Shown here: positions 6,521 to 13,830 of the stretch, piece by piece
How the letters are laid out: the number at the start of each line of letters is the position of its first letter
Position numbering within the stretch: the first letter of the stretch is position 1
Source: Celeribacter baekdonensis
GTDB taxonomy: Bacteria; Pseudomonadota; Alphaproteobacteria; Rhodobacterales; Rhodobacteraceae
DNA length: 64,000 nt
Assembly (NCBI RefSeq): GCF_003047105.1
Contig: NZ_CP028474.1
Location: 1-64,000, forward strand
Reading direction: 5' to 3'
Made by a program: the position numbers and the translations under genes
Notes under the pieces: generated by a model
Told to the model about the DNA's origin: nothing
The model's input: the letters and a program-made list of their open reading frames with translations, nothing else
The model's database searches: none

Positions 6521-6581
6521 TTGACTTCTATGCCTCAGAAGTGGTCTAGATGTGAGTTATAGAAAGGATGTCTATAACTCA
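6521..6581 (+). promoter_or_regulatory. Promoter plus operator-like inverted repeats before the Fic gene
   Basis: TTGACT (6521-6526) and TCTAGA (6545-6550), 18 bp apart, form a plausible sigma-70 promoter. A short inverted repeat acttct/agaagt lies over the spacer. Next comes a perfect 10-bp inverted repeat, TGAGTTATAG (6553-6562) and CTATAACTCA (6572-6581). Its 9-nt loop contains the Shine-Dalgarno aaagga, and its last base is the A of the Fic start codon. The dyad could be an operator for autoregulation or an RNA hairpin presenting the ribosome-binding site. Confidence 0.6.
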
Positions 6582-7693
6582 TGGCTTGGAACTGGACGCT
6601 GCCTGATTGGCCGGATTTCCGGTATGACGCCTCCGCTCTGGAGCCGTTTGAGCAGACGTTCCTGCTGTCGTCCGGAGAAATCCTCGGCGCGGTCCATCAT
6701 GTCAGCCAGCCGGAACGCGAGCAACTCCGCATCGAACTGCTCAGCGAGGAAGCGATGCAGACGAGCGCCATCGAGGGTGAAATCCTCGATCGGCTCAGTG
6801 TGCAATCTTCGCTGCGCCGCCATCTGGGCCTCGATCCGGACAGCTACCCTGCCAAACCGCGCGAACAGGGCGTCGCGGAAATGATGGTCGACGTCTATTC
6901 CAGTTTTGCAGAGCTGCTAACCCATGAGACACTGTACCGCTGGCATCGGATGCTCCTGTCCCATGACCGTCGGTTGGAAACCATTGGGGCCTACCGACAA
7001 CACGCCGAGGCGATGCAAATCGTTTCCGGCCGCCTTGACCGGCCCACGATCCATTTCGAAGCGCCGCCCTCGGAGCGGGTCATGCCTGAGATGGAGCGAT
7101 ACGCGGATTGGTTCAACAAGACCGGTCCGGGGGGAGCAGAGCCGCTTCCAGCACTGACGCGCGCAGGGCTAAGCCACCTCTATTTCGAGAGTATCCACCC
7201 ATTCGAAGACGGCAACGGCCGCTTGGGTCGCGCCCTCGCTGAAAAGTCGCTGGCGCAGAACATTGGCCAGCCCACCCTCATCTCGCTCGCCTTCACCATC
7301 GAGAAGGAGCGCAAGGGATACTACGATCAGCTTGAGCAGCATCAAAAAACGCTCGACGTGACCGATTGGCTCGTCTGGTTCGCAGAAGTTGTCTTGAAGG
7401 CCCAACAGGCAACACTCGACCGCGTAGGCTTCTTCATCAGCAAGGCACACTTCTACGATCGTCACAGAGACCACTTGAACGAACGCCAGGCCAAGGCCAT
7501 CGCTCGAATGTTTCAGGAAGGCCCTGGCGGTTTCAAAGGCGGCCTCAGCGCCGACAACTATCTCAAGATCACCGGAACTTCACGCGCAACCGCAACCCGC
7601 GATCTGCAGGATCTGGTCGAGAAAGGTGCGCTCAGCCGGACCGGTGAGCGACGGCATACGAGGTACTGGTTGAACCTAGACCATATGGAGTAG
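6581..7693 (+). CDS. Fic family protein (AMPylation-type) with C-terminal winged helix
   Basis: Fic enzymes usually transfer AMP from ATP to a target protein. The 370-aa product has an N-terminal DUF4172-like helical region, the canonical active-site motif HPFEDGNGRLGR (206-217), and a C-terminal winged-helix-like domain (TGTSRATATRDLQDLVEKG). An inhibitory helix motif of the (S/T)xxxE(G/N) type, TSAIEG, is at 61-66, which makes this a class II, self-inhibited Fic protein. The DNA-binding-like C-terminus and the large inverted repeat touching its start codon suggest autoregulation. There is no separate antitoxin gene beside it. Family assignment is strong; the target is unknown. Confidence 0.93.
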   Translation: MAWNWTLPDWPDFRYDASALEPFEQTFLLSSGEILGAVHHVSQPEREQLRIELLSEEAMQTSAIEGEILDRLSVQSSLRRHLGLDPDSYPAKPREQGVAEMMVDVYSSFAELLTHETLYRWHRMLLSHDRRLETIGAYRQHAEAMQIVSGRLDRPTIHFEAPPSERVMPEMERYADWFNKTGPGGAEPLPALTRAGLSHLYFESIHPFEDGNGRLGRALAEKSLAQNIGQPTLISLAFTIEKERKGYYDQLEQHQKTLDVTDWLVWFAEVVLKAQQATLDRVGFFISKAHFYDRHRDHLNERQAKAIARMFQEGPGGFKGGLSADNYLKITGTSRATATRDLQDLVEKGALSRTGERRHTRYWLNLDHME

Positions 7694-8435: not shown

Positions 8436-9122
8436 TCACAGCTTGGGGCGATCCTGTTCTGGAACCTCCCACGGGTCCTCCAGGGTGACGATGCCGTAGC
8501 GGACGCCATCGCGGCCGGCCTTCGGAAGAAAGGTGATCATCCCGATATCCAGGATCATCCCCTTGTCGTGCATGTGCTGCTGTCGGAAGTGACCGAAGTG
8601 CGTGAGATATCCGAGGCCCTCCAACTCGAGACACAGCGCGGAGATCGCGGCCGAATACTCAAGCCGCTGGCCGGCGCTGCTCATATCCCAGATCCCGTCC
8701 AGATCGGTCATCCAGTCCGAAATCGCGGCAGTCAGTTCGAGGGCATTGCCGGCCTCCACCGCGCCGGCGTTGAACAGGAGCCCGTGCCATTCGCGGTTAC
8801 GGGAATAGAAGTCGTTGGGCTTCCTGATGGGGGACGTGGGCACGAGCACCGTCTTTTTCAGCGCGCGCTCCATTTCTTCCTGCTGGCGCTTCTCCTCCTC
8901 GGGGGTGAGCTTGGAGAAGACCGTGATGTCGAACCCGAGGCCGCGCGCGAGGCTTCGCAAGGTCTGCACCTCGGGCACGTGCCGTCCGCTTTCCACCTTC
9001 TGGATCGTGCGGACCGTCAACCCGGAGGTGTCCGCAAGGTTCTCCTGGGTTAGAGAGAACATCTTGCGGATATACTTGCACTGGTTGGCGATATACTCGG
9101 CGTCTCGTTCCATCGTTTCCAT
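8436..9122 (-). CDS. XRE-family regulator with novel C-terminal domain
   Basis: A 228-aa protein. Residues ~12-66 form an XRE/Cro helix-turn-helix (SLTQENLADTSGLTVRTIQK, then the turn ESGRHVPEVQTL). The C-terminal ~130 residues (DMSSAGQRLEYSAAISALCL region) are not recognised and could be a sensor or effector. I chose the ATG at 9122 after ggagtg; the frame is open upstream but those codons look spurious. It is the last, same-strand gene after the ubiquitin-like operon, 82 bp beyond the DUF6527 gene. It is therefore a candidate regulator of that operon or an additional component. Confidence 0.8.
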   Translation of the reverse strand: METMERDAEYIANQCKYIRKMFSLTQENLADTSGLTVRTIQKVESGRHVPEVQTLRSLARGLGFDITVFSKLTPEEEKRQQEEMERALKKTVLVPTSPIRKPNDFYSRNREWHGLLFNAGAVEAGNALELTAAISDWMTDLDGIWDMSSAGQRLEYSAAISALCLELEGLGYLTHFGHFRQQHMHDKGMILDIGMITFLPKAGRDGVRYGIVTLEDPWEVPEQDRPKL

Positions 9123-9204: not shown

Positions 9205-9567
9205 CTATCCCGCCCCGGGGCCGCTGTCCTTGCACCAGTCAATCCGCCCCTGCCGGATCCAGAAGTGACACCGGCATTCGTTCGTCTGGCGGACCGACGG
9301 CGAGATGGTCGGGCGCCTCAGCCAGTCTGACATGGCCGTCCACCTGGGCCTCCGGTTCTTGCTGAGGGACAGTTTGATGGTCTCGCCGCACCCACCAGGG
9401 CAGTGGAAGCAGGCCCATTTGTCGACGCCATCGCGCACGATGGTCATCTCCCCCGGCACGATCTGATCCGGCGTCGGGTGTCTGGGTGTTACCCTGGCAA
9501 GCAGGTCACTTCGTGGAATGAGGCGGAAGAGCTCGAGGCTCTTCCGCAGAATGTCGATCATCATCCC
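9205..9567 (-). CDS. DUF6527-like protein, cysteine-rich, of the ubiquitin-like operon
   Basis: A 120-aa protein with a zinc-ribbon-like arrangement: CFHCPGGCGE (residues 52-61) and, near the C-terminus, CRCHFWIRQGRIDWC. This matches the DUF6527 family as I know it, a frequent last partner of bacterial JAB/E1/E2/multi-ubiquitin operons. Its role is not established; a metal-binding accessory or substrate-recognition factor is possible. The start is ATG 9567, immediately followed by a second ATG and 3 bp past the E1 stop, so it is probably translationally coupled. Confidence 0.7.
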   Translation of the reverse strand, partial: GMMIDILRKSLELFRLIPRSDLLARVTPRHPTPDQIVPGEMTIVRDGVDKWACFHCPGGCGETIKLSLSKNRRPRWTAMSDWLRRPTISPSVRQTNECRCHFWIRQGRIDWCKDSGPGAG

Positions 9568-9569
9568 GC

Positions 9570-10979
9570 TCACCCGATGCGATCCAGGAACGGATCGATG
9601 TCGCCGAGACCCCAGTATTCCTCGCTGCCGCAGACCGGGCAGTCGGACCGAGGCTGCGCCGCCTGCGAACGCTCTAAACCCTTGTCGAGCTTGCGATAGC
9701 GTTGCCATGTCCATCCACCGCCGCCGCGGAAGTCAACGAGACCGGCAAGAAGTTCGTTCACTGCCATGGTGGCGGCCTCGGAGGTGAAGGTCACGACGGC
9801 CGGCGCGGGATTACCTCCGCCGCGGACGTAGGCTTCGGTCTTCTGCCGTTCATATTCGACGGGGTCCGATCGCTGGAGGTCCTCCTCGCGAGCCCTGACG
9901 CGATCGACTGTGCCGCGGCAGCCGTGGCACGCCGACGTGGGAAACAGCACGCTGACCCGCGCGGCCATCTCGAGGAGGCCGGGCTCACCATCATCACGGG
10001 GCATGAGGACCAGCCCGACATCGATGACCGGGATCAGGTAGAAGTGCGCCACGCGGTTCAGGTAGAGGCGCCCGGCGTGATCGTCCGTGCATCCGAAGAT
10101 GACGTCGCAGGATTTCAGCGCGTCACGGATATGCGGCGCATCCACCCAGCCGTTCATCGACCGGATCTCGACGTCGAGGCCCATCATCGTCACCTCGCGC
10201 GCCATGACGTCGACCTTGGGCACCGCGTTTTCAGCATCCTTTCGGGTCGCGCCATACAGGCGGTTCAGGTTGGAATGCTCGACCACGTCATCGTCGATGA
10301 CCAAGATGCGCCCCACGCCGAGGCGAGCGAGGAGATGGACCACCGGGCTGCCGGTGCCGCCGCAGCCGACCACGGCAACGGAGAGCTGTTTGAGGAGTCC
10401 GTTGACCTCCGGCCCGAAGGCCAGTGCCTGCCGGGCCAAGGCTTCCGACGGGGTCGGCACGTCGGTCGACTGGATCTCGAGCCGAGTGCCGATGACGGTC
10501 ACGCGGCGACAGGGCAAGGGTGTCATGTCGTCTTCCCAGACCCGTGCCCGGTAGAGGCCGTCACCGACTTGCACGACGCTCACCAAGCGTGTCCCCTCGC
10601 CGTTACGGTTCCGAGCCATGGTGAAGAGGTCGCGCTCGTTGCGATCGTCCTGGTCCGAGAAACCGTCGAAGCCTCCCGGGTGACTATGAACGATCGCCGG
10701 CACCAGGCCTTCCTCCTTGGCCCGGCGACAGAGCTGGGCGAAGGAGTTGGTATTCCAGGTGACGTGCTTGTCGCTGGCATCGACGCGGTCCTCCTGCGGG
10801 ATCGCGATGACCTCGTAGGAGGTGTAACGGGTCCGCGGCTCGAGGTCCCAGGGGTCCTGCGCGATCTCGCTTTTGCCGAGCAGCATGTAGGCGGCGCCCT
10901 CGTGCCCACGGGGGTGCGCGAGCAGCGCCTGCAGCTTGTCGCGGTGACGGGCGTGGAGGGTGATGTCGCTGCGCTTCAT
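9570..10979 (-). CDS. JAB isopeptidase - E1 (ThiF) fusion
   Basis: A 469-aa fusion. The N-terminal JAB/MPN domain carries the JAMM zinc motif: HSH at 98-100, then S108 and D111 (HSHPGGFDGFSDQDD). The central ThiF/E1 domain has the nucleotide-binding GCGGTGS (205-211) and the NLNR motif (237-240). CHGC (351-354) and a C-terminal CPVC are candidate catalytic or zinc-binding cysteines. Family knowledge: such proteins adenylate the C-terminus of a ubiquitin-like protein and can also process or deconjugate it. The start overlaps the E2 stop (ATGA). Identity is strong; substrate and biological role are unknown. Confidence 0.92.
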   Translation of the reverse strand: MKRSDITLHARHRDKLQALLAHPRGHEGAAYMLLGKSEIAQDPWDLEPRTRYTSYEVIAIPQEDRVDASDKHVTWNTNSFAQLCRRAKEEGLVPAIVHSHPGGFDGFSDQDDRNERDLFTMARNRNGEGTRLVSVVQVGDGLYRARVWEDDMTPLPCRRVTVIGTRLEIQSTDVPTPSEALARQALAFGPEVNGLLKQLSVAVVGCGGTGSPVVHLLARLGVGRILVIDDDVVEHSNLNRLYGATRKDAENAVPKVDVMAREVTMMGLDVEIRSMNGWVDAPHIRDALKSCDVIFGCTDDHAGRLYLNRVAHFYLIPVIDVGLVLMPRDDGEPGLLEMAARVSVLFPTSACHGCRGTVDRVRAREEDLQRSDPVEYERQKTEAYVRGGGNPAPAVVTFTSEAATMAVNELLAGLVDFRGGGGWTWQRYRKLDKGLERSQAAQPRSDCPVCGSEEYWGLGDIDPFLDRIG

Positions 10980-11356
10980 GCCGCCACCTCCAGGGCCTCT
11001 TCGACCCGCTTCAGCATGGTCCAGATGCCGTCGGTGCCGGGACGCCACTGGTTGTTATGGCGAGACCAGCGCTGCCAGTTCTGGCCATCAAAGGCCTGGC
11101 GTGCCTGCGTGCAGCGGGGCTCACGCTGGCCGACAAGGAGCTTCAGATGCGGCACGGCGTAGAACATGTCGGGGGCGACCTCGGGATACGAGGGCGGCAG
11201 CAGGATCAGGATATCCACCTGGGCGACCTGATACTTGCCTTCCGGCAGCGTGATCCCGGTGAGGATCACGCCCTTCTTTCCGCCTTCGATGACCTCGCGA
11301 ACGGTGATGCCGCGACCCTCGAGGTAGCGGCGATCCTGACGGGGGAGGAGGCTCAT
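10976..11356 (-). CDS. E2-like ubiquitin-conjugating protein (prokaryotic E2 family E type)
   Basis: A 126-aa E2-fold protein. It shows the LLPPSYPEVAPDMFY segment typical of the UBC core and a conserved cysteine at residue 82 (REPRCTQAR), the expected thioester site. The WQRWSRHNNQWRPGTDG block that follows is characteristic of the prokaryotic E2_E group. It would accept the activated ubiquitin-like protein from the E1 and transfer it to a target. It overlaps both neighbours by ATGA (mUb stop to E2 start, E2 stop to E1 start), so the three are one translational unit. No separate E3 is evident. Confidence 0.88.
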   Translation of the reverse strand: MSLLPRQDRRYLEGRGITVREVIEGGKKGVILTGITLPEGKYQVAQVDILILLPPSYPEVAPDMFYAVPHLKLLVGQREPRCTQARQAFDGQNWQRWSRHNNQWRPGTDGIWTMLKRVEEALEVAA

Positions 11357-11892
11357 GCCGCACCCCCTTCCGTGGTCTGGGGCACGCCGGTGAAGAAGTG
11401 CTCCAGGCCAGCATCCGCGAGGCAGATCAGATCGGTGTCGCCGACCAGGATGTCATCCTTGCCGGGGATCACCTGCCAGACGGCGAACTTCGCGGGATCG
11501 ACCCCGGCCAGCTTCTTGAGCACGCGCCCGCTGATGACCTTGTGGCCCCACTCGAGGCGTTTGCCATCGATGTCGAAGCGGAAGGATTCCGCGCTCGGGA
11601 AGACCAGGAAGCGCTCGACCTGGCCAGGGCGCAGATCCGTGGTTTCCTCGAGGCGCAGTTCTTCAAGTTCACCGTTGCGCAGCACCTGGAACACGAGGTG
11701 TTCCTCGGCCTTACGGAAGTCGGCCCCCTCGATGATCTGGCGGCCGGTGGGCGTCGGATCGTCGATGACGGCGTCGGTGAACTTCAGGTCGTGGTCGCCG
11801 ACTTTGACCTTGTAGGGTCCGTGGTCGCGGGGCTTGCGGCCGGCCTTCAGGGCGGCCTGGAGATCTTCGATTTCCATCTGTTCGGTAGTCAT
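11353..11892 (-). CDS. Tandem ubiquitin-like (multiubiquitin) protein ending in GG-AA
   Basis: A 179-aa product with two beta-grasp-like repeats (about residues 20-92 and 93-168). Each contains a hydrophobic strand pattern such as KVGDHDLKFTD or ESFRFDIDGKRLEWG followed by a ...VLRNGELEEL-like end. The protein terminates ...TTEGGAA. A Gly-Gly two residues from the end would need removal of AA before activation, a job suited to the JAB domain of the downstream fusion. It is the first gene of a four- or five-gene operon. I chose ATG 11892 (MTTEQ) rather than an upstream in-frame ATG because of spacing to tttgctgccat. Confidence 0.85.
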   Translation of the reverse strand: MTTEQMEIEDLQAALKAGRKPRDHGPYKVKVGDHDLKFTDAVIDDPTPTGRQIIEGADFRKAEEHLVFQVLRNGELEELRLEETTDLRPGQVERFLVFPSAESFRFDIDGKRLEWGHKVISGRVLKKLAGVDPAKFAVWQVIPGKDDILVGDTDLICLADAGLEHFFTGVPQTTEGGAA

Positions 11893-12054
11893 GGCAGCAA
11901 ATCCTTTTCTTGTCTGCTCGACGCCCGCAGCAGGCGCCATCAATGGTGTATGCGCGGCACAAGAGGGTTCGCGTTCTTAGCCTTGATATTTTTTTGAATT
12001 TTCTTGACTGCGATAGGTCGCTGCGTGCGCATATGTATATTAAGAGCAGCGAAG

Positions 12055-12645
12055 ATGGCGATTGGCATGGCGAAAGACACACCCCAAGAGTTCAATACCC
12101 TCAAGGAATTCACTGACGAACTGGACCTTCTCTTCCGCGATGATGTCGCACTCAGAAAGCTCCTTCAGAAGGCGCGCAACTGGTGCATTCGGAACAACCG
12201 AGTCGGCGACGAGGAGGAGGTCCTTCAAGAGGCCGTCATGAGGGTGATGAAAAGTGAGATCACCGGGACACGCCAATGGCCCAAAGGTGTTGCGCTTATG
12301 GACTTTCTCTCCGGCGTGATGCGGAGCATTGCATCGGAGCGGCCTAAGATCGGGTTTCGCAAGAACGCCGACAAAGACATGGAGGCCGCGAAGGACATTG
12401 CCTCGTCGTGCAACCAAGAAGGGCAGCTCTTCGAGAAAGAATTTATGGCCCGCTTCATGGCGCTCTTCGAGGGTGATGACGATTCACAGCTATACCTCCT
12501 GGCTCTGGAGGAAGGGCAATCGAAGTCCGAGATCATGACGGGCCTCGACTGGAATGAAAGGGAATACAACACGGTGGTGCAGCGGGTCAAAAGGACACGC
12601 AACGCCCACCCGGAAATGAAAGAGATGCTCAATGGCGAAGGATAA
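12055..12645 (+). CDS. Sigma-70-like protein, divergent from the ubiquitin-like operon
   Basis: About 196 aa. The N-terminal part (DEEEVLQEAVMRVM followed by FLSGVMRSIASERP) resembles sigma region 2 of ECF-type factors. The C-terminal part (ALEEGQSKSEIMTGLDWNER..., then VVQRVKR) resembles a sigma region 4 helix-turn-helix. It is likely a dedicated promoter-selectivity factor, though a non-sigma DNA-binding role cannot be excluded. The start may be ATG 12055 or ATG 12067. It overlaps the next gene by 14 bp. The divergent position, 162 bp from the ubiquitin-like protein gene, suggests it controls that operon. Confidence 0.65.
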   Translation: MAIGMAKDTPQEFNTLKEFTDELDLLFRDDVALRKLLQKARNWCIRNNRVGDEEEVLQEAVMRVMKSEITGTRQWPKGVALMDFLSGVMRSIASERPKIGFRKNADKDMEAAKDIASSCNQEGQLFEKEFMARFMALFEGDDDSQLYLLALEEGQSKSEIMTGLDWNEREYNTVVQRVKRTRNAHPEMKEMLNGEG

Positions 12646-13045
12646 GAAAACCTTTCAAGATCGCCTGGCGGAGGAAATCGACGAAGCTATCACGAACGCT
12701 TCAGACGAGGATATTCGAAAAGAGGCTGAAGAGGCCGGGGAGGACATTGCTGCTTTCGGTGATCGCATGAGAGTTTGGCTGGAGACCGCGAAAGACGAGG
12801 TCGCCGAAATGGCAATGAAGGAAGCCAAGGCCGCAGCTGAGCAAGGTCGTGCAACGCGCGACCAGAATGTCGTCTCCATGGCTCAACGCAGGCCTGCGAA
12901 CAGGCCTGGCAACTTCATGCCCGATACGGTGGCCGCTCGTCATGGAAAGAAGCTGTCGGAGAGAGACAGAAAAGGGATCGAGAAGGACTTGGAAGACCTG
13001 TTCGACGATGACGCTTGGCCTGACAAAAACGGCGATGAAGAATGA
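12632..13045 (+). CDS. Small acidic protein between sigma-like and ImmA/IrrE genes
   Basis: A 137-aa, highly charged, helix-forming protein. The first ~90 residues are Glu/Ala/Lys-rich and probably coiled coil (EEIDEAITNASDEDIRKEAE), followed by a basic linker and an acidic tail DLFDDDAWPDKNGDEE. I do not recognise the family. It overlaps the sigma-like gene by 14 bp and the protease gene by 4 bp (ATGA), so the three are co-translated. By analogy with repressor/ImmA pairs it could be the inhibitor or cleavage substrate of the protease, for example an anti-sigma. That is inference from gene order only. Confidence 0.7.
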   Translation: MAKDKKTFQDRLAEEIDEAITNASDEDIRKEAEEAGEDIAAFGDRMRVWLETAKDEVAEMAMKEAKAAAEQGRATRDQNVVSMAQRRPANRPGNFMPDTVAARHGKKLSERDRKGIEKDLEDLFDDDAWPDKNGDEE

Positions 13046-13830
13046 CTCATTCTCCGCGTCGTGCTGAGGAGATCCTCCAGGCTTTGCGCCTGAAGCGACC
13101 GGAAGACATCAACCTTGAAGCCATTGCCTGGCTTCAAGGTGCCAAGGTTGACTACCGGGAAATGGACGGATGTGAGGCTTGCATCCATGGTCGAGCTGAC
13201 GTCGGCCGCGCGATAATCGCCGTGAATGACGCGCATGGAAATCTACGGCGCCAGAGGTTCTCCCTCGCACACGAACTGGGGCACTGGGAATGGCACAGGG
13301 GAGAACATCTGTTTTGTGCAAAAGAGGATATCGGGGGTAGCAAGGGGCGGGAACGAGGAATGTCCCGAGAGAAGGGCGCCAACCGGTTCGCCTCAGAGCT
13401 GTTGATGCCGGAGTTCATGCTCAAGAGCGCACTGAATGACTTCAGGAAATTCGATATGCGCACCGTCCGTCTTCTTTCGGACGCCTTTTCTGTCAGCAAG
13501 ACGGCCATGGCGTATCGCTTGGTGGATCTGGATTTCGAGCCGAGCCTCCTGGCCTCTTACAGCCGCGGCGGCCTCAACTGGTTCAAGAGATCGAAGAGCG
13601 TCGGGGAGCGATGGTTCCTGCGTCGAACACTTGACCCGCAGAGCAACGCTCACGATATCCTGCACAAGGGAGCCCGGGACGACATCTCGCTGTCTCTTAT
13701 GGACGCGGACACCTGGTTCGATACAGAGGGCGCCGATCGGTATGAGCTTGCTGAGCAGTCGTTCCGTGTGGGTGACGACGAGGTCATGACCTTGCTGGTC
13801 CTGAAGAGCGAATACATGATGGCGCGATAA
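13042..13830 (+). CDS. ImmA/IrrE family metallopeptidase
   Basis: A 262-aa protein with the gluzincin motif AHELGHWEWH (HExxH at residues 77-81) and a downstream ANRFASELLMP that supplies the third zinc ligand (Glu). The family cleaves repressors or anti-sigma-like proteins in response to damage or mobile-element signals. The C-terminal ~110 residues (from about 150) are an additional domain of unknown role, possibly sensory. It is the last gene of the three-gene cassette. Its likely substrate is one of the two co-encoded proteins or the XRE protein at 8436-9122. Confidence 0.88.
   Translation: MTHSPRRAEEILQALRLKRPEDINLEAIAWLQGAKVDYREMDGCEACIHGRADVGRAIIAVNDAHGNLRRQRFSLAHELGHWEWHRGEHLFCAKEDIGGSKGRERGMSREKGANRFASELLMPEFMLKSALNDFRKFDMRTVRLLSDAFSVSKTAMAYRLVDLDFEPSLLASYSRGGLNWFKRSKSVGERWFLRRTLDPQSNAHDILHKGARDDISLSLMDADTWFDTEGADRYELAEQSFRVGDDEVMTLLVLKSEYMMAR

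Follow-up and report, generated by a model that had tools for sequence, protein, structure and literature searches.

How is a bacterial ubiquitin-like conjugation operon switched on? The question is raised by positions 9205-13830 of the DNA analysed here (the window: the first 64,000 nucleotides of contig NZ_CP028474.1 of Celeribacter baekdonensis), where an operon of the bacterial ubiquitination-like (Bub) type on the minus strand and a trio of genes on the plus strand diverge across 162 nt. The trio encodes a sigma-like protein, an acidic protein and an M78 (ImmA/IrrE) protease. An earlier note, made from the sequence alone, had named these genes and suggested that the protease cleaves the acidic protein and thereby frees the sigma factor for transcription of the conjugation operon; open reading frames and Pfam matches on both strands confirmed that all the named genes are present. 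A related controller is CapH-CapP, which Lau et al. in 2022 reportedly described for the cyclic oligonucleotide-based antiphage signaling system (CBASS), Bub and other immune operons. The comparisons presented below make it likely, if well short of certain, that the trio acts as a self-contained control unit for the divergent immune-type operon, that is, a sigma/anti-sigma version of CapH-CapP.

The first gene of the trio (12055-12645, plus strand; the start may lie at 12067, in line with the annotation of a copy in Aestuarium) encodes a protein that models as a sigma factor of the extracytoplasmic function (ECF) type. Its AlphaFold2 model (mean predicted local distance difference test, pLDDT, 87.7) retrieved ECF sigma factors as the best matches in Foldseek, with 1or7, of the SigmaE-RseA type, at rank 2, and a homologue (L031) matched Pfam Sigma70_r2 with 25.2 bits, above the 24-bit cut-off. 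Regions 2 and 4, which are expected of an ECF sigma factor, were both found in the trio sigma. The description of the protein as sigma-70-like is thus supported by the model and the fold matches, the sigma function itself being predicted from the model. The third gene (13042-13830, plus strand) encodes a metallopeptidase of the CapP type (PADLOC capP, E 4.4e-59; Pfam Peptidase_M78, 4.9e-17), whose best relative in the PDB is the solved CapP 7t5t (E 5.2e-8); within its HExxH zinc motif (HELGH, 13270-13284, plus strand), H77, E78, G80 and H81 are invariant in six of six trio CapPs. The acidic protein between them (12632-13045, plus strand) is the putative anti-sigma and CapP substrate. It matched PADLOC capH weakly (2.6e-7), capH matches being obtained for three of eight members of the family, and its model consists of N-terminal helices, a low-confidence linker and a C-terminal helix. 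An AAR motif at residues 101-103 (12932-12940, plus strand) is proposed as the region of CapP recognition or cleavage; A101 and R103 are invariant in all 50 aligned acidic proteins, and the tail motif A[AF]R is present in 72 of 73. The translational coupling claimed for the trio holds in the form of an ATGA overlap for the acidic protein and protease genes, whereas the sigma and acidic protein genes overlap by 14 nt instead.

A lack of conserved neighbourhood had been named beforehand as the result that would speak against the proposed link; the search was run, and the trio was found to be conserved. GTDB contigs were scanned with six aligned trio CapPs as the query, and the best 80 of at least 382 relatives were kept. 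A sigma-like gene lay upstream in 73 of these 80, and the acidic gene was the second trio gene in 76; three of the seven relatives without sigma (L049, L057 and L073) have at most 424 nt upstream of the match. Because the query was built from trio loci, these counts show linkage within one CapP lineage, not prevalence. Altogether, 88 loci were examined, 76 of them with the full trio, and the 73 with a distinct CapP (12 incomplete and three identical-CapP loci were omitted) form the set used below; both L016 and L080, which are of the window's own lineage, are counted in it, and the open reading frame calls, being greedy, contain errors. Judged by the titles of the records, the trio was found mainly in what we take to be alpha-, beta- and gammaproteobacteria, and in single metagenome-assembled genomes of Oryzomonas and Spirochaetes.

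Prevalence was addressed by the capP matches in two genome sets. Among 385 alphaproteobacterial genomes, 62 contained a capP match with E ≤ 1e-20, and the best 23 of those loci (L145-L167) comprised two trios (L151 and the window) and, by our own reading, 19 with an HTH (helix-turn-helix) CapH upstream, L152 and L166 being left unassigned. A phylum sample yielded capP matches in 31 of 398 genomes; 21 of 25 further loci from it matched the HTH-CapH profile, four had neither, and neither sigma nor acidic protein was found in any of these 25 loci. The acidic profile, for which up to 10 candidates were scored in each genome, matched only in the window's own genome among the 398. Judged by these searches, the trio is a minority form among CapP loci. 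When phage records were compared with CapP, five matches were obtained, none covering more than 80% of its length. Two IMG/VR "viral" contigs (L096 and L097) carry a trio-type CapP, 95% and 40% identical to that of the window, preceded by a sigma and an acidic gene (in L096, part of the sigma gene only); both may be plasmid sequence.

Immune-type operon genes were recognised on the divergent side, that is, on the opposite strand and with profiles of our own, in 41 of the 73 trio loci. Bub-type E1 was found in 20 loci; 12 had genes of the CBASS type (CD-NTase, SAVED, or patatin plus a Cap2-like E1), the latter count including two loci with CD-NTase fragments only (L030 and L032) as well as L094 and L095, of which L094 displays patatin and a Cap2-like E1 and no CD-NTase. 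A metallo-β-lactamase (MBL)-like protein together with an E1-E2-JAB fusion occurred in seven (the label "MBL" of this cluster, c13, stems from partial PADLOC matches of 1.6e-10 and 2.3e-9), and a cyclase of the pyrimidine cyclase system for antiphage resistance (Pycsar) in two. The trio is thus not specific to ubiquitin-like operons, which the earlier note had singled out. Opposite the trio, 15 loci contain only small DUF2188, DUF3892 or c4 genes, six a lone gene of an unknown family, c7, and 11 genes that were not classified. The same profiles matched downstream of CapP in only one of the 73 loci, a comparison that favours the divergent side because the profiles were built from it.

The DNA between the trio and the genes facing it contains putative promoters in mirror image. 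In 69 intergenic regions (those of four more of the 73 loci were omitted because of similarity), TGTCCG was present on the plus strand of 42 (6.8 expected) and on the minus strand of 37 (6.3 expected). The promoter pattern TGTCCG-N16-19-CGCATA, allowing one mismatch in each box, was present toward sigma in 32 of the 69 regions, toward the operon in 32, and in both directions in 27, compared with a mean of 1.9 and maxima of 5 and 6 in 50 shuffles. The spacer was 16 or 17 nt in nearly all hits. Pattern density was 2.6 per kb in the intergenic regions versus 0.18 per kb in the remainder of these loci, and for 21 HTH-type CapP loci, six with a pattern match in 29 kb were obtained, which is near background. 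The two sides also vary in step: the -10 type differs by locus (CGCATA, CGCCTA, GAGTCC or GAGCCT), and in the 48 of 69 loci having an outward [TC]GTCC[GA] pair, agreement between the -10 regions of both sides was 6.33 of 8, versus 4.45 across loci, a value reached in none of 5000 permutations. A scan for symmetric pairs without a fixed consensus found perfect pairs (14/14) in 12 of 68 loci, against none in 204 shuffles. A single factor reading both promoters would be the simplest account of these patterns, and no protein of the module other than sigma has a domain recognised as reading DNA. Sigma thus very probably transcribes its own gene and the divergent operon, and the mirror-image promoters common to both argue for the suggestion that it drives the conjugation operon.

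In the window itself, candidate promoters face both ways. Toward sigma, a -35 element (TGACTG, 12005-12010, plus strand), which agrees with the family consensus at four of six positions, lies 17 nt upstream of the family -10 element CGCATA (12028-12033, plus strand). Toward the operon, a weak -35 element (AGAACG, 11972-11977, minus strand; three of six positions) lies 17 nt upstream of a second CGCATA (11949-11954, minus strand), the mirror of the first. An outward CGCATA pair arose in 41 of 20,000 shuffles. An autoregulated promoter common to the target, as is typical of ECF sigma factors, is seen in the family, and the window fits it in its -10 boxes only. The exchange of an arginine for valine in region 4 was considered as the explanation for the odd -35 boxes of the window, and was dropped, as L023, L046, L064 and L065 also lack the arginine and have the usual GTCC pair.

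A natural swap provides a further comparison. The plasmids pMARC5 of Paracoccus marcusii and pP73C of Celeribacter indicus carry the window's Bub operon at 88% and 97% DNA identity, respectively (in pP73C, IS256 is inserted between E1 and E2), with multiubiquitin and E2 proteins 89-97% identical to those of the window. The match stops at window position 11939, and the trio beyond it differs: sigma is 27-28%, the acidic protein 30% and CapP 45-46% identical. Both plasmids have the sigma-facing promoter TGTCCG-N17-AGCATA and the Bub-facing promoter CGTCCG-N17-AGCATA. As the trio is a different one and both promoters changed together with it, trio and promoter pair appear to move as a block; the trio is a conserved, mobile module.

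The following course of events is proposed. In the resting cell, the acidic protein, whose translation is coupled with that of sigma, would keep sigma inactive. Single-stranded DNA arising from DNA damage or phage attack would activate CapP, by analogy with CapP and PprI of known systems, and active CapP would cut the acidic protein near its AAR tail. Released sigma would then bring RNA polymerase to the two back-to-back promoters. From the sigma-facing one, more sigma, acidic protein and CapP would be made, which constitutes a positive loop in which the brake is also re-made; from the operon-facing one, the ubiquitin-like conjugation operon would be transcribed. Once CapP calms, newly made acidic protein would restore silence. 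The step from sigma to the operon is well supported by the promoter sequences; the other steps, and any effect of the operon on the cell or on phages, we infer.

Several observations weigh against the trio being such a controller. The sigma-like protein of the window has no Pfam sigma match, its match to NCBIfam sigma70-ECF (E 0.043, 13.4 bits) is below the cut-off of 42.9, and Foldseek returned no match for its model at E≤0.001. The -35 boxes of the window lack the GTCC core; its promoters are its least typical part, and the window is therefore an atypical member of the family in its -35 elements. Spacer controls for the -10 comparison agreed between sides slightly above chance (3.60 vs 3.21, 9/2000; 3.69 vs 3.25, 3/2000). 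In Mantel tests (Spearman), promoter type correlated with the distance of CapP (0.47) as well as with that of sigma (0.44) and of the acidic protein (0.30); since CapP distance correlates as well, the test does not single out sigma, and the idea that promoter type is tied to sigma sequence beyond common descent was dropped. The similarity between the tails of the acidic protein and CapH is weak (HHalign probability 5.5%, P 0.007), and 32 of the 73 trio loci face no recognised immune operon.

Sigma may transcribe the operon and yet be wired differently: CapP might cut sigma or some other protein, or the acidic protein might be a co-activator or chaperone. The acidic family gave only chance matches to PDB sequences (best E 0.11), and its model found no PDB match in Foldseek, hence none to known anti-sigma folds, which leaves room for this alternative, as both cleavage and inhibition are proposals. 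The order sigma, partner, protease with overlapping genes is, in contrast, usual for sigma/anti-sigma pairs, although the survey of the sigma/acidic overlap across loci took the start codon nearest the sigma stop, which favours overlaps. In addition, the AAR tail is absent from Bradyrhizobium relatives that have sigma and partner and no protease, and the tail resembles, if weakly, that of CapH, the known CapP substrate. A different wiring is thus regarded as unlikely, and the acidic protein as a putative anti-sigma, by its gene position and overlap, that CapP would cut.

Distinctly unlikely is an ordinary CapH-CapP system with a passenger, in which the acidic protein would be a diverged CapH repressor, the CGGACA/TGTCCG repeats its operator and the sigma-like protein an accessory. 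The repeats are indeed inverted, and the PADLOC capH match of the acidic protein points in the same direction. However, CapH is an HTH transcriptional repressor, and in the acidic protein no HTH was found by Pfam, nor was one recognisable to us in the model. In 32 loci, exact back-to-back -35 boxes are separated by anything from 6 to 66 nt, whereas the second box keeps a constant distance of 16-17 nt; the elements therefore behave like promoters, and unlike a dimer operator. Moreover, relatives without CapP retain sigma and the sigma-facing promoter, as judged by eye. That the trio controls nothing but itself or distant genes, its neighbour being incidental as in a defence island, is very improbable: the loci with small, lone or unclassified genes across the promoter would suit it, but operon-facing promoters match sigma-facing ones and change along with the trio in the natural swap, and profile matches concentrate on the divergent side from which the profiles come.

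The preferred reading, a sigma/anti-sigma controller, is best appreciated next to known systems. In CapH-CapP, CapP activated by single-stranded DNA destroys the HTH repressor CapH (PMC13373217, PMC10904395, PMC10233336). The trio resembles this system in having an M78 protease of the CapP family with HExxH beside an immune-type operon, a substrate gene (here, a proposed one) just upstream of capP, and an [AF]R tail conserved in both CapH and the acidic protein; by this analogy, its CapP would respond to single-stranded DNA. It differs in that loss of CapH derepresses, whereas the trio has sigma and an acidic protein in which no HTH was found, and its promoters look sigma-specific, that is, made for activation. 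In the systems of the SigmaE-RseA type, an ECF sigma is released by proteolysis of a membrane-bound anti-sigma, cut by envelope-sensing proteases. Common to these and the trio are an overlap of the sigma gene with the partner gene behind it, an autoregulated promoter and the (here proposed) proteolytic release; in contrast, partner and protease of the trio appear to be soluble, and DNA damage is proposed as the signal. In PprI/IrrE-DdrO and ImmA-ImmR, an M78 protease inactivates a transcription regulator upon DNA damage (PMC10904395, PMC10233336), and this target, unlike that of the trio, is an HTH repressor. CapW and CapK-CapS are controllers that respond to damage and lie next to Bub and CBASS operons (PMC13373217): CapW is a repressor relieved by binding of single-stranded DNA, CapS is relieved by phosphorylation, and CapK-CapS resembles sigma-factor regulators yet has no sigma factor, whereas the trio has one.

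The notion that the trio had not been described must be narrowed, for its protease is CapP, and CapH-CapP has been reported beside Bub and CBASS operons (PMC13373217). A literature search, which did not reach the primary CapH-CapP and Bub papers, found no account of a sigma/CapP trio. Within the literature searched, the parts are of known kinds; what was not seen there is an M78 protease combined with both a sigma factor and a putative anti-sigma at the promoters of immune operons. By a narrow balance of probability, the trio would represent an undescribed class of controller: a soluble protease of the DNA-damage type cuts a cytoplasmic anti-sigma and frees a dedicated sigma, as a self-amplifying plug-in switch common to Bub, CBASS, Pycsar and MBL/E1-E2 operons, born perhaps when the DNA-binding head of CapH gave way to a sigma-holding head and the CapP-cut tail was kept.

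Bub operons encode a ubiquitin-like protein, E2, E1 and JAB peptidase together, and the operon of the window fits this composition by its Pfam matches. All on the minus strand, it comprises a multiubiquitin (tandem ubiquitin-like) protein (11353-11892; Multi_ubiq, E 3.4e-28, in two stretches), an E2-like conjugating enzyme (10976-11356; Prok-E2_E, 9.8e-50), a JAB-E1 fusion (9570-10979; ThiF, 1e-38; Prok-JAB, 1.8e-7) and a DUF6527 protein (9205-9564; DUF6527, 9.2e-25). The ATGA overlaps stated for the operon are found between multiubiquitin and E2 and between E2 and E1; they do not extend to DUF6527, which starts 5 nt past the E1 stop. An XRE gene had been included in the conjugation set. It is located at 8436-9122, 82 nt beyond DUF6527 and outside 9205-13830, and it is excluded from the system because its cluster is, in the operon lists, confined to four loci with the same operon copy (L016, L017, L080 and the window). 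Further along, positions 6581-7693 encode a Fic-domain protein whose N-terminal domain is DUF4172. A survey counted 544 Bub operons, of which 219 have CapW or CapH and CapP, and it gives phage protection by Bub operons as not demonstrated (EMBO J 2026, PMC13373217); part of these 219 could be the trio.

A plasmid of Aestuarium zhoushanense (L005, CP021117.1) contains the same trio and the first Bub genes at 99.9% DNA identity. The match breaks off within the E1 gene, at window position 10693, and DUF6527 is missing beyond it; the conjugation set is therefore cut short in this plasmid. A supposed second copy of the trio at G000:C3:126874-127456 was rejected: the window's contig stops at 127,457, and the final 2,084 bases before that point match window 10555-12640 at 99.9%. 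This repeat (G000:C3:125374-127457) is read as the untrimmed circular overlap of a plasmid of ∼114.8 kb.

Some of the genes facing the trio belong to recurrent families. Proteins of cluster c7 (∼314 aa) are encoded alone or first across the promoter in seven loci (L062, L070, L083, L084, L086, L087 and L092), all Burkholderiales-type records; the L062 copy has no Pfam or PADLOC match, and c7 is a candidate for a new immune or stress gene. The c4 protein (∼92 aa, starting with MIYAINYDL) lies directly across the promoter in eight loci (L011, L015, L022, L023, L025, L052, L054 and L067); its gene sometimes precedes CBASS or Bub genes, and the L023 copy has no Pfam match. Three Bradyrhizobium loci (L030, L032 and L033) have only CD-NTase fragments across the promoter, with the trio genes still recognised. 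Three Bradyrhizobium plasmids (L008, L009 and L014) carry sigma and a short partner without protease, the divergent gene being annotated as of the rRNA adenine methyltransferase family, and the sigma-facing promoter is, by eye, the same.

Immune operons that could damage the cell have to be kept off until they are required. CapW, CapH-CapP and CapK-CapS all act by lifting a repressor (PMC13373217). A sigma-based controller, if the proposal is true, would contribute positive feedback and portability, together with a promoter code readable in the sequence. The genes found across the same promoter, namely small DUF2188, DUF3892 and c4 genes and c7 of unknown family, would thereby become candidates for new roles in immunity or stress, and how Bub operons are turned on could be put directly to the test.

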